A stretch of 34,995 bases of DNA, from positions 1 through 34,995 of the IMG/VR virus record IMGVR_UViG_3300012920_000121; one strand, given 5' to 3'. Shown here one piece after another: positions 3,400 through 7,142 of the stretch (its first letter is position 1; every line of letters starts with the position of its first letter). The translations under genes were made by a program, and so were the position numbers. The notes beneath the pieces were generated by a model that saw nothing but the letters and a program-made list of their open reading frames with translations, was not told the origin of the DNA and made no database searches. The DNA comes from a virus.

Positions 3400-3636
3400 T
3401 TAGAAAGGGATGTCGTCATCGTCATCAACCGATGCCTTGGCTTGCTTAGCCTCTTGAACCATAGGTTCTGAAAATGCTATACTGAGGTACTTCTTGCCAG
3501 ACTTGGCTTCATTGATCCAGGCTGCGAGGCGAAGTTCTTTCCCCTCTATGAGACCCATGCCAGTATAGTCTGGGCCTTTCTCGTTTTTCTTTTCTTCCTC
3601 TTTGAAGAGGGCGGCGGTATTATTTTTTCTTTCCAT
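3400..3636 (-). CDS. small DUF736-like protein with SSB-type acidic C-terminus
   Basis: This protein has 78 residues. The body (NNTAALFKEEEKKN...PDYTGMG...LRLAAWINEAKSGKKYLSIAFSEP) resembles the small DUF736-type phage and plasmid family, a short beta-rich domain; the match is from memory. The end is DDDDDIPF, which is essentially the tail of bacterial single-stranded-DNA-binding proteins, the docking peptide for DNA-processing enzymes. Its ATG shares the A of the helicase stop (TAATG), so it is coupled to DnaB. It is last in the operon. A small ssDNA-binding or partner-recruiting role at the fork is likely; a complete OB fold cannot be shown at this length. Confidence 0.75.
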   Translation of the reverse strand: MERKNNTAALFKEEEKKNEKGPDYTGMGLIEGKELRLAAWINEAKSGKKYLSIAFSEPMVQEAKQAKASVDDDDDIPF

Positions 3637-4925
3637 TAGTTCAATCTCGCTGGTTGAGGTTCTTTTGCTGTGCTATCATATCGTGCGTAGCTACGTGAAA
3701 ATGTCAAGGGTAAAGTGCCAGTCTTGCCATTGCGGTTCTTGATTACTGTAACCTCCATAGTCTCTACAGGCTGGAATGGTTTGTCTGTCATATCCTTGGT
3801 ACGCCTGAGCATTATAAGCTGATCCGCTTCCTGTTCCAAAGAACCCGAATCCCTGAGGTGACTCATCTTGGCGGTGGTGTCCTTCTCTGATTCCCTGTTC
3901 TGTTGGGAGAGTACGACTACAGGAATATCAAGCTTCTTGGCTAACCCCTGCATACCACGGGACAAATTTGTAACCCTCTCATAGATGTCCTTCCCTGGCC
4001 CATTCATTATACCGATGTAATCCACGAACAGTATATCAAGTCCATTCCTTGTTTTCTCAGACATCGCTTTGGCTGTAAGGTAGGGAATCGTCATCCCAGG
4101 TGACTGATCTATCTTTAACTGCCATCCACTAATTCTGTGCATCGCCTCGGTAAGCTTATGCTTGTCATCACCCCTGTAGTGGTTTGATGTGTTAATGATT
4201 GGCACTGATGCCTCGGAGTGCAATAGCCTTTTGCGTAATTGATCTAGGCTCATCTCAAGACTACAGAACATTACCTTGCTTCCCTTAGCTGCAATCTTTG
4301 CAGCCATTGACAAAGATAGTGCGGTCTTTCCATGAGAGGGGCGTGCCGATATACAGGACATCTCTCCCTTCTTGAATCCACCGAGTACATTGTCGAGATC
4401 AGTGAATCCTGTCATTACTCCTGGCTCAATCTTGCCTTCATCCAAATCAAAGCATTCCTGAAGTACCTGTTCCAATCCATCACCCACATCGGTGACCTCA
4501 TTGTTCTGATCGCTCAGGGTGTCCGTAATCCTTTTGCTCGCATTGGCTAAAATGTCATTAGGGTTCTCTTTCTCTCTGAGCTTATCCAGTAGCTCCAATG
4601 CAATGTAGTTTGCCTGCCTGTTAGTCCAACACTTAAGTACTCCTTCGGCAAAGGTGGTTACATAGGTCGATGTCTCGGTACGCTCACACCATGAGAATAT
4701 ATCCATCATGTCTACACCTGACTTATCAGCTAAGACAACTTCATCGGGCGGTTCAGTCAGCTTGCCCATCTCCTCAAACACCTTGCCTTTGTTTGTATCA
4801 GCAAAGTGACTGGGGTTTATTATCTCGCTCGCCCTGCCATAGGCAGTAGGCCAACTTAAATCTTTAAGGCATGAGCTTAGCACGCCACTCTCATAATCAC
4901 TCTCGCTTAAATCATAATAATTCAT
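3636..4925 (-). CDS. dnaB: DnaB-type replicative helicase
   Basis: This 429-residue protein has RecA-fold helicase motifs in order: the entry TGFTDLDNVLGGFKKGEM, Walker A ARPSHGKT at about residues 194-201, MFCSLEMS, Walker B LDILFVDYIG at about 296-305, LSQQNRESE at about 339-347, and the DnaB-typical DSGSLEQEAD at about 359-368 with an Arg pair in MLRRTKD. A reduced N-terminal domain precedes residue 140. It is a hexameric 5'-3' ATP-driven helicase that unwinds phage DNA. The start (Met-Asn-Tyr-Tyr) lacks a Shine-Dalgarno and overlaps the 24-residue membrane ORF by 14 bases, suggesting translational coupling. The upstream initiator is a likely loader. The SSB-tail protein follows. Confidence 0.95.
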   Translation of the reverse strand: MNYYDLSESDYESGVLSSCLKDLSWPTAYGRASEIINPSHFADTNKGKVFEEMGKLTEPPDEVVLADKSGVDMMDIFSWCERTETSTYVTTFAEGVLKCWTNRQANYIALELLDKLREKENPNDILANASKRITDTLSDQNNEVTDVGDGLEQVLQECFDLDEGKIEPGVMTGFTDLDNVLGGFKKGEMSCISARPSHGKTALSLSMAAKIAAKGSKVMFCSLEMSLDQLRKRLLHSEASVPIINTSNHYRGDDKHKLTEAMHRISGWQLKIDQSPGMTIPYLTAKAMSEKTRNGLDILFVDYIGIMNGPGKDIYERVTNLSRGMQGLAKKLDIPVVVLSQQNRESEKDTTAKMSHLRDSGSLEQEADQLIMLRRTKDMTDKPFQPVETMEVTVIKNRNGKTGTLPLTFSRSYARYDSTAKEPQPARLN

Positions 4926-4986
4926 ATAACCAACATATTACTAGCACTGTTAACATAACGAGGCAGAATAATCCTAACATAGTCAT
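4912..4986 (-). CDS. 24-residue hydrophobic peptide between initiator and helicase
   Basis: Its ATG shares an A with the initiator stop (TAATG at 4986), and it ends inside the helicase start region (TGA at 4914-4912). The product (MTMLGLFCLVMLTVLVICWL plus YELL) is almost wholly hydrophobic, enough for one membrane helix. No Shine-Dalgarno is visible for the helicase start at 4925. Reading this peptide could place ribosomes at that start, so it may serve as a coupling leader, a membrane peptide, or both. It is small enough that chance cannot be excluded. Confidence 0.5.
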   Translation of the reverse strand: MTMLGLFCLVMLTVLVICWLYELL

Positions 4987-5726
4987 TAGGCATTCACGCC
5001 CCATGCGGATGGGGTAAACTCTTCGACTTCATCTTCCCATCTGTTTCCATTGAGGAAGGTGGTAGCCATTGGGACAAATCTTCCGTTCTCCTTTGTCCAG
5101 CTTTCGGTATCTTTTAATTTTTTAACCGAGTCAATAATTAAATTTCCTTTTTCCTCCAAGCTTTGGAATACCCAAGTGACGAAAGCCTCTTTCTTGTTTT
5201 GCCTTACGCCATTTCTAGGAGGATAGATTTCCCAAAAAATTTTAAAGTTAGGATAGTGATCATATGAAATACGATTGGAATGAAGTGCATCCTCTACAGC
5301 CCTTTTAGTTTTATATGTTTTATTTACATATTCATCTTCATCTTCCGCCCGCGTGCGCGTACGCGAGGGGGACTTTACTTTATTCTTAGCTTTAGATGTT
5401 TTCGTATCTCCCTCATCATCAACCATCCTACGGGAATATATAACCCCTTCATCGTCCACAGAATAAACCCCTGCATCTTTTAGTTCTGACAGCCAATGAA
5501 GTACTTCATTTTCAGGATTGCCTGCACCGATAAGTCGCACGATTTGTTCTTTATGAAGGGCTTTATTTCCTACCATAAGGTAGCCCCTTTTTTCTGACTC
5601 CCACATATAGCAGAGCATCCTGATCCATAGACCTTGCGCGCATAAACTGCAGGAGTTTAAATTTGGATCCACTAGCCAATCTCGTGGGTAGAATAACATT
5701 GCTGGTCTTTTACCTTTAGTTCCCAT
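4986..5726 (-). CDS. replication initiation/helicase-loading protein (DnaT/O-like layout)
   Basis: This 246-residue protein has two parts. Near the N-terminus, PAMLFYPRDWLVDPNLNSCS...QGLWIRMLCYMWES is a typical opening of phage replication proteins with a winged-helix domain (DUF1376-like or O-like). A basic, disordered linker (SKAKNKVKSPSRTRTRAEDEDE) spans about residues 112-133. After it come FKIFWEIYPPRNG...KKEA near residues 161-181 and the closing PMATTFLNGNRWEDE, typical of the C-terminal helicase-interaction module. The role would be to bind the origin or ssDNA and load DnaB, which lies one gene on. The start at ATG 5726 has GAGAAG just upstream and overlaps the resolvase stop by 11 bases. 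Confidence 0.8.
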   Translation of the reverse strand: MGTKGKRPAMLFYPRDWLVDPNLNSCSLCAQGLWIRMLCYMWESEKRGYLMVGNKALHKEQIVRLIGAGNPENEVLHWLSELKDAGVYSVDDEGVIYSRRMVDDEGDTKTSKAKNKVKSPSRTRTRAEDEDEYVNKTYKTKRAVEDALHSNRISYDHYPNFKIFWEIYPPRNGVRQNKKEAFVTWVFQSLEEKGNLIIDSVKKLKDTESWTKENGRFVPMATTFLNGNRWEDEVEEFTPSAWGVNA

Positions 5727-6068
5727 TTCTTCTCACTTCTATTATCGTTTCCTCTTGCTTGTAGCCCGAGACCTTTTCTTGCGTGATGTCGATTTCGATG
5801 ACTTCTGGAGTATCTTCTGGGATAACGCCAGCATAGCGGAGTTGATCGATGACATCCTTACAGTAGAGGTTGTCTGGGTCGAGTAGCCTGACCCTACGGC
5901 TTCTAATGCTAACAGTATACTCTGCCCGCATTCCTTCTTGGCTTTTACCTTCGCCCACCGATTTGACCCTAACACCACGTTTAGACTTGGTATTCGGTAG
6001 TCCTTCATGGTCAGGGTAAGCACTTGACCTATGTCGAGCAGATGGTTCGGTTCCTTCCTTTTCGTCAT
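5716..6068 (-). CDS. rusA: RusA-like Holliday junction resolvase, split over two frames
   Basis: The C-terminal half (frame ending 5716) has the RusA catalytic segment: a strand YTVSIRS, LLDPDNLYCKDVIDQL with clustered Asp, then AGVIPEDTPEVIEI and a final strand EETIIEVRR. The matching N-terminal half (TMKDYRIPSLNVVLGSNRWAKVK), the usual RusA opening, lies in a different frame that starts at ATG 6068 and stays open to 5742. Joining them needs a -1 shift before about 5925; the only A run in that zone is GTAAAAG near 5941-5948. The joined product would be about 117 residues, close to E. coli RusA (120). Programmed frameshift, a short single-frame protein from GTG 6075, or a sequence error are all possible. 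Role: cut four-way junctions in the recombination/replication operon. Confidence 0.75.
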
Positions 6069-6071
6069 GTA

Positions 6072-7142
6072 TCACTTATCCTTTTGTAAAGAGGGAGACT
6101 TCTCTTTGGCAACAATAACTTCTGACAGCATCTCCTCAACTGCCTTGCGTGATCCCTTCTTATCGCCTGTTCTCTCCTCATACAACTTGGTTATGTCCGA
6201 CAGGTTAATCTTCAGGTATTGCTTAAGATCATCATCGGTTAAACCCATTTTGTCCATAAGTATCTGGATCGCTTTTGGCATATCCTTAATCGACTTGACT
6301 GATCCAGTTTTGCGTAGCTTGTAGTTGGGAAGATATGATTCATCCTCCTGTAACTTTTCCTTGACCCACTTCGTCAACCTGTCTGACCACTTGGATGCGA
6401 TCTGTGCCACACCTATCAGTCTCTCTATCTCGTATGGCTCTTCAAGCTTTTCAAGATCAACCTCCACAATAGTGTCCATCACATTTCTGACTTCAGGACA
6501 ATGGACTAGAGCCTTGCAATACTTACAGGCATTCGGATGTGGACGGCGGGGAGCCGAGGGGTGAAGCGCATCCTTCAAGATTCCAAGCAAGGTTGCTCTC
6601 GCCTTACGCAAGTCTTGCTTGTTGAGCATATCCATAGAATACGCCTCGATCCCCAATGGCTGAATTAGGCAGATATACACACAGTCTAAGTTATGCTTCT
6701 CTGCCAAAAGTACCGCATATGCCCTGAGCTGTAGGTTGTCGTAGGCATTTACTTGATACCCCCCTAAAGTTTTATAGTCGATGACTAGCCCCGTACCATC
6801 CTCATATTCTGCATAATCGAACTTACCGCTGAGGACTCTAGCACCTGCTTCATTTAGTAGCCAGTATCTTTCCTCTTTTCTTATCTCTGAATTATCCGTG
6901 AAGCCTACTTCCTGTCTGGCTTTTTCAGTAAGACTTCTTGCTCTGCTGACAACAAACCTACGCTCAGGCTCAAGGCTATCAACCTTTAGTCCATTGTCAG
7001 CGATAAGCTCATGCCTTATGGTTCCCTCAGTGGCATCAGCGGATTCTACCTCAGGAAACTTTTTTTCGAGATTCCAACTACCAGGACACAACTCTAACCT
7101 ACCTATACCTGACGCAGAAGGTGCATTACCTCTTTCGTCCAT
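6072..7142 (-). CDS. Cas4/RecB-like PD-(D/E)XK exonuclease with Cys cluster (DUF2800-like)
   Basis: This protein has 356 residues. Motifs in order are Cys19 (ELCPGSW), GTIRHEL with His44, LSGKFDYAEY with Asp109, LVIDYKTL with Asp122-Tyr-Lys124, and QLRAYA with Gln138. A C-terminal ACKYCKALVHCPE follows, with Cys206, Cys209 and Cys215. The H...D...DxK...QxxxY order is the RecB/Cas4 nuclease core; the one early and three late Cys match the 4Fe-4S cluster of Cas4/AddB. The enzyme probably resects DNA ends to make ssDNA for the DUF1071 annealing protein in the same operon. The C-terminal 140 residues are extra and rich in Lys/Glu. The start at 7142 overlaps the upstream membrane protein by 17 bases. 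Metal-cluster assembly is inferred. Confidence 0.88.
   Translation of the reverse strand: MDERGNAPSASGIGRLELCPGSWNLEKKFPEVESADATEGTIRHELIADNGLKVDSLEPERRFVVSRARSLTEKARQEVGFTDNSEIRKEERYWLLNEAGARVLSGKFDYAEYEDGTGLVIDYKTLGGYQVNAYDNLQLRAYAVLLAEKHNLDCVYICLIQPLGIEAYSMDMLNKQDLRKARATLLGILKDALHPSAPRRPHPNACKYCKALVHCPEVRNVMDTIVEVDLEKLEEPYEIERLIGVAQIASKWSDRLTKWVKEKLQEDESYLPNYKLRKTGSVKSIKDMPKAIQILMDKMGLTDDDLKQYLKINLSDITKLYEERTGDKKGSRKAVEEMLSEVIVAKEKSPSLQKDK

Follow-up and report, generated by a model that had tools for sequence, protein, structure and literature searches.

The locus lies on the minus strand of a 34,995-nucleotide viral sequence (IMG/VR record IMGVR_UViG_3300012920_000121; hereafter, the window), where two reading frames overlap almost completely. 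Frame B runs from an ATG at 6068 to a stop codon at 5742 (108 codons) and includes the sequence DYRIPSLNVVLGSNRWAKVKAKKECGQSILLALEAVGS. Frame A, which is the −1 frame relative to frame B, runs from a GTG at 6075 to a stop codon at 5716 (119 codons) and includes the sequence GMRAEYTVSIRSRRVRLLDPDNLYCKDVIDQLRYAGVIPED. Both frames, with their near-coincident starts, are confirmed at the coordinates given by a first-pass annotation of this DNA. On one side, the pair is adjacent to a phage exonuclease gene (6072–7142, phrog_69), and on the other side, to a gene for a replication initiation protein (4986–5726, phrog_270) that is followed by a DnaB-type helicase gene (3636–4925, phrog_19). This recombination-replication module is a setting that suits a junction resolvase. 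The features of the locus are listed in Table 1; relative positions in the text are counted from the DxD motif, with zero at the first base of its first Asp codon, such that relative position r corresponds to window coordinate 5880 − r.

Table 1. Features of the two-frame locus in window coordinates, with their predicted roles.
Feature	Position	Strand	Description or basis
Gene B, predicted RusA N-half chain	5742–6068	−	First strand, P-S-L-N...R/H-W loop, helix 1, basic tail
Gene A, predicted RusA C-half chain	5716–6075	−	Open but unconstrained leader/linker, then catalytic half
Frame-B-constrained stretch (RusA N-half proper)	5898–6023	−	Substitutions on B third codon positions; match to single-frame RusA N-terminus
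Frame-A-constrained stretch (RusA C-half proper)	5719–5922	−	Substitutions on A third positions; phrog_34/phrog_1682; AlphaFold pLDDT 92
Dual-coded zone, end of B helix 1 and start of A strand 2 on the same bases	5898–5922	−	Two-way codon resampling; column profiles
D-P-D codons of chain A, equivalents of E. coli RusA D70 and D72	5872–5880	−	Invariant in 53 sequences; alignment to 1q8r
Lys of chain A, equivalent of RusA K76	5857–5859	−	Invariant in 53 sequences
Asp of chain A, equivalent of RusA D91	5812–5814	−	Invariant in 53 sequences
AAGGA, Shine-Dalgarno-like	6079–6083	−	10 nt 5' of the gene B ATG, 3 nt 5' of the gene A GTG
In-frame A ATG just 5' of the C-half, possible alternative chain A start	5929–5931	−	Kept in the four close relatives of the window

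Comparison to protein families and to single-frame relatives places different parts of a RusA-like resolvase in the two frames, as the first-pass annotation had proposed. The second half of window frame A matches phrog_34 (E = 2.2 × 10−4, residues 50–116), and of 12 diverse C-halves, 11 match phrog_34 and 10 match phrog_1682 (best, 3.8 × 10−7). The Pfam RusA model (PF05866) is matched by no C-half, and even a single-frame relative falls below its cut-off. Aligning each frame separately to RusA families, which had been suggested as a check, thus succeeded for frame A, whereas frame B of the window, taken by itself, matched no family, and the N-halves in general matched no Pfam model and no informative PHROG model. 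Profiles of the RusA N-terminus were built from the single-frame relatives L128, L129 and L185, which are identified as RusA by phrog_34 and phrog_1682. With these profiles, the B-frame N-halves of 23 of the 39 representatives scored above 5 bits, compared to 0 of 39 in each of the other frames and 0.6% of shuffled sequences, and a profile-profile comparison of the N-half to the single-frame RusA N-terminus gave P = 1.9 × 10−4. The RusA opening therefore lies in frame B, the single-frame N-terminus match, and the catalytic segment lies in frame A, the phrog_34 match. In these single-frame proteins, the closest single-chain relatives found, the N-half (PPTLN...HW) aligns with frame B and the C-half (LLDGLRYAG) with frame A, but both are in one frame. 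The distance between the N-half and C-half profiles is 147 nt in the single-frame form vs. 95 nt in the window type, a shortening of the RusA core by 52 nt.

The equivalents of D70, D72, K76 and D91, which we take to be the catalytic residues of E. coli RusA, are invariant in 53 sequences, and all catalytic residues reside on chain A; the N-terminal strand, the P-P-S-x-N loop and helix 1 are found in frame B only. The AlphaFold model of the window C-half is a strand-helix-strand-strand unit with a pLDDT of 92. Among the structural matches listed for this model, the best TM-score was that of RusA 1q8r (0.64, probability 0.82, E = 0.61), and none of these matches was significant. The model of single-frame L128 is poor (pLDDT 42) and serves only as an indication that strand 2 begins after helix 1 has ended; the split point is the loop between these two elements. 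Compared to the RusA family (E. coli RusA; PDB 1q8r, 2h8c and 2h8e; phrog_34 and phrog_1682; PF05866), the locus has in common the D-x-D-N...K...D motif, the order of strand, loop, helix, strand and catalytic half, and the setting in a phage recombination/replication module, but differs in that the predicted product consists of two chains from overlapping frames, with a core spacing 52 nt shorter and with the helix end and the strand start co-encoded. No member of the group encodes RusA as one polypeptide of ~120 residues, the halves lying in two frames in every one of them.

The same two-frame layout, which the first-pass annotation had proposed to seek in related phages, was identified in ~116 IMG/VR contigs besides the window (distinct contigs, counted by hand), in the methanogen virus vir555 and in a few bacterial genomes. 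When profiles of both halves were scanned over all fetched loci, the C-half was located in the −1 frame of the N-half in 123 of the 126 scored loci (which include contigs found more than once), far more than chance would give, bearing out the claim that the RusA halves occupy two frames. The N-to-C spacings in the two-frame loci are 92, 95, 107 or 140 nt, every one of which is 2 modulo 3, and the sole in-frame locus has a spacing of 147 nt. An N-half match was absent at the threshold in two loci, L022, where a weak match again shows the −1 relation, and L048, which is cut off by the end of the contig. A later scan added nine two-frame contigs, a few bacterial copies and one more single-frame relative (L185); since split sequences served as the search seeds, the relative numbers of split and single-frame loci are no estimate of their frequencies. 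In four IMG/VR contigs with ~70–84% DNA identity to the window, both frames are kept and the core contains no indels. The layout in vir555 is the same, with a C-half that is merely 37% identical; here, vir555_00024, annotated as ‘hypothetical protein’, is frame B, and the catalytic half in the −1 frame has no annotation. The vir555 deposit (BK063671.1, 12539–12837; L010:1391-1692) names the N-half alone, as a hypothetical protein. Searches of annotated phages other than vir555 found no further case. In Verrucomicrobiota and relatives, 6 of the 388 genomes contained matches, a few of which are split.

Comparison of independent sequence pairs shows that the phase of substitutions flips along the locus, with changes falling on B third positions upstream and on A third positions downstream. 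Substitutions at the first, second and third positions of frame A numbered 164, 57 and 40 in the B-only zone, and 106, 63 and 239 in the A-only zone. Both frames are nevertheless kept free of stop codons where the other frame is the constrained one. Under a null that preserves the protein of the constrained frame and the pooled codon usage, frame A upstream (−143 to −59) contained 2 stops vs. 13.4 ± 3.5 expected, and frame B downstream (−18 to +129) contained 4 stops, all from one sequence, vs. 33.1 ± 5.3 expected, whereas the third frame was not depleted of stops (94 vs. 82.8 expected and 99 vs. 107.8 expected). Avoidance of stops thus extends the claim that both frames stay open through the join to frame A upstream and frame B downstream. 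Consistently, four-fold degenerate B codons that precede AA, AG or GA ended in T in 0 of 112 cases, compared to 39 of 419 elsewhere; downstream, there is no such bias. As in an overlapping gene pair, selection is detectable in both frames and both are kept open. The basic tail of gene B shows no constraint except for this openness.

To test the conservation of residues in each frame, null expectations were generated by resampling synonymous codons of the other frame. Residues of frame A are conserved above the B-only null from −42 on (z = 7.0 at −42 and 8.7 at −33) and scarcely earlier, and residues of frame B are conserved above the A-only null from −41 to −20 (z = 3.6–6.8 at six positions) and essentially nowhere later; the representatives are related to each other, such that these z-scores overstate independence. 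The clearest column is a frame B Leu at −26, present in 36 of 38 sequences (null mean 7.2, maximum 15). The same ~25 bases (−42 to −18) therefore encode the B helix A-L-L-S-A-L-x-A and the A strand R-F-x-V-R-V-x-S and, because the end of the helix and the start of the strand are on the same bases, no single −1 slip can yield a complete RusA. The pairwise substitution rate is not lowered in this zone (0.222 per site vs. 0.179 and 0.168 elsewhere), which sits oddly with a strict double constraint; the double constraint is visible in the residues retained over long times and not in a slower rate. Conservation of frame B as a by-product of frame A was rejected by codon resampling. Also rejected by resampling was the idea that frame A encodes a conserved single-frame protein 5' of the C-half. 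There, residue conservation is essentially limited to that imposed by frame B, although the openness and the short N-terminal motifs are real; a single-frame homologue conserved at the N-terminus of the 119-residue frame, which would have spoken against the two-frame reading, is accordingly not what the sequences show.

The frame A start is located near −180 to −220 in most representatives, and the frame B start lies inside frame A, near −137 to −200. In many loci, the starts are good and accompanied by Shine-Dalgarno sites, and some of the B starts are preceded by strong ones (AGGAGG in L010, GGAGGT in L074 and AAGGAG in L176). In L059, L069, L125 and L029, the ideal site for the B start has no ATG, GTG or TTG, so that B in these loci would need upstream or unusual starts. 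The pattern expected of separate chains is seen in three natural variants. Frame A of L076 and L082 is not open upstream but has an ATG at −51/−60, just 5' of the C-half, and frame B of L033 terminates at −2, directly after the helix. Motifs at the N-terminus of frame A (FPNASxSF, LGYxxxPDGxY, DLPxxY) were found in 28 of the 48 representatives and in none of the other frames, and look like docking tags. Such motifs, in the longer forms FPNASxSFxxxN, LGYxxxPDGxY, DLPxxYxxQ and WTxEExxAYxxRR, recur at A starts in L015 (−177), L026 (−189), L041 (−192), L173 (−174) and others. In several loci, the AAT-G of ‘PNA’ in frame A also provides frame B with an ATG.

As far as can be judged from the sequences, the locus probably encodes a split RusA-type Holliday junction resolvase, the product of two genes in different frames with almost complete overlap. 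The chain encoded by gene B would contribute the first strand, the substrate loop and helix 1 of RusA, and the chain encoded by gene A would contribute strand 2, the D-x-D-N...K motif, the second helix, the D91 equivalent and the last two strands. Both chains would be translated from separate starts on one message and would associate, restoring the RusA fold as a heteromeric resolvase. RusA acts as a dimer, and the heteromer would therefore probably contain two copies of each chain. Such an enzyme could resolve branched intermediates that the products of the neighbouring exonuclease and replication genes generate during recombination or replication.

The first-pass annotation offered four readings of the two frames, namely, a programmed −1 shift, overlapping genes, a broken gene and an assembly error, of which overlapping genes is the one that stands. 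A programmed −1 frameshift, with translation starting in frame B and slipping to frame A near the Lys-Lys codons (approximately −59/−56) to produce one fused RusA, is unlikely. The coding phase does change from B to A in the right order, and the B frame at the Lys-Lys codons reads A_AAA_AAG in L027 and A_AAA_AAA in L015; however, a search for slippery heptamers and tetramers in the 39 representatives found classical ones only in these two, and no slippery motif is conserved, the window included, in agreement with the earlier remark that a classical heptamer is missing. The GTAAAAG that had been suggested as the slip site is not conserved either, the relatives having GTCAAGG, GTCAAAG, ATGAAGG or GTGAAGG. 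A fusion would lack ~17 residues of the helix and loop, and the B helix is conserved past the slip, through the A strand. The ~117 residues that result from joining the frames at that site, which had been considered the normal size of RusA, are a coincidence, given that gene B has a leader of ~25 residues and the core is 52 nt short. In a frameshift gene, frame A could contain stops upstream of the slip site, but stops are avoided in this region, and frame B is open downstream as well, which favours two translated genes.

A backward re-reading, by a hop of ~25 nt from the end of the B helix to the start of the A strand, would yield a full-length single chain that takes in all the conserved residues, those of B as far as about −18 and those of A starting at −42, but such re-reading leaves unexplained the selection for open frames on either side, the independent starts and the changed spacings. 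We know of no precedent for such a hop and consider it highly improbable. It is also very unlikely that only gene A is functional and that B is a relic with conservation imposed by A. All catalytic residues are on chain A, and the C-half folds alone in the prediction, as this explanation would have it; against it, upstream of −45, substitutions fall on B third positions and A residues are conserved no more than B imposes, and frame B matches single-frame RusA. For a pseudogene or an assembly error in the window contig, there is the two-frame appearance itself and nothing more. Both are excluded by the presence of the layout in ~116 independent contigs and in vir555, the lack of indels, including frame-restoring ones, among close relatives and the purifying selection on the locus.

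The putative split resolvase likely originated by a deletion of ~52 bases between the helix and the strand of a single-frame RusA, which would have shifted the two halves into different frames. Expression of both frames would then have been maintained from starts that already existed or arose anew, and selection would subsequently have fixed the ends of the two halves on one shared stretch of 25 bases. We infer, with somewhat less assurance than the split itself, that this viral enzyme family is now an obligate two-chain complex with superimposed halves, in which the same 25 bases specify a helix of one chain as well as a strand of its partner, and that it is old enough to be present in viruses of bacteria and of methanogenic archaea. 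As in the overprinted gene pairs reviewed in PMC8227390, two frames of one stretch are selected; there, an old gene is paired with a de novo gene, whereas here the constrained parts are halves of one ancestral enzyme. The programmed frameshift genes of phages and IS elements (PMC5009743, PMC10885494) likewise have an N-terminal part in one frame and a C-terminal part in the −1 frame, but at the present locus, there is no conserved slippery site, both frames are open throughout and the core is dual-coded. In the literature searched, from which most subscription papers were missing, we found neither a split nor an overlapping RusA described; a paper on a frameshift predictor merely lists RusA/RuvC among the flagged genes. 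Gene finders should overlook one half of such a pair, as in vir555, where the catalytic half is unannotated, so that the resolvase is probably present but unrecognised in many viral and prophage genomes. The family would be an unusual test case of an enzyme cut in two without loss, with halves of one fold on common coding bases.

Two long-spacer split RusA copies were found in the LW23 genome (Verrucomicrobia), on contigs C56 and C11 (L131 and L137), and probably belong to two related prophages. Their spacing is 140 nt, the spacer exceeding that of the main class by 45 nt, and the helix and the strand have no bases in common, the A codons being ATC rather than the ATT needed for the B Leu. Given this nearly full-length spacing, a frameshift in the LW23 copies could yield an ordinary RusA. 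Some C-halves also have matches, at 3 × 10−4 to 6 × 10−3, that cover much of phrog_1532, a family of unknown function with 80 positions. This family is possibly a PHROG of RusA C-halves alone, in which case there may be another set of split resolvases. In another contig (L150:1-460), a partial tandem duplication of the split RusA locus leaves frame A with two copies of the strand and DPDN segment.
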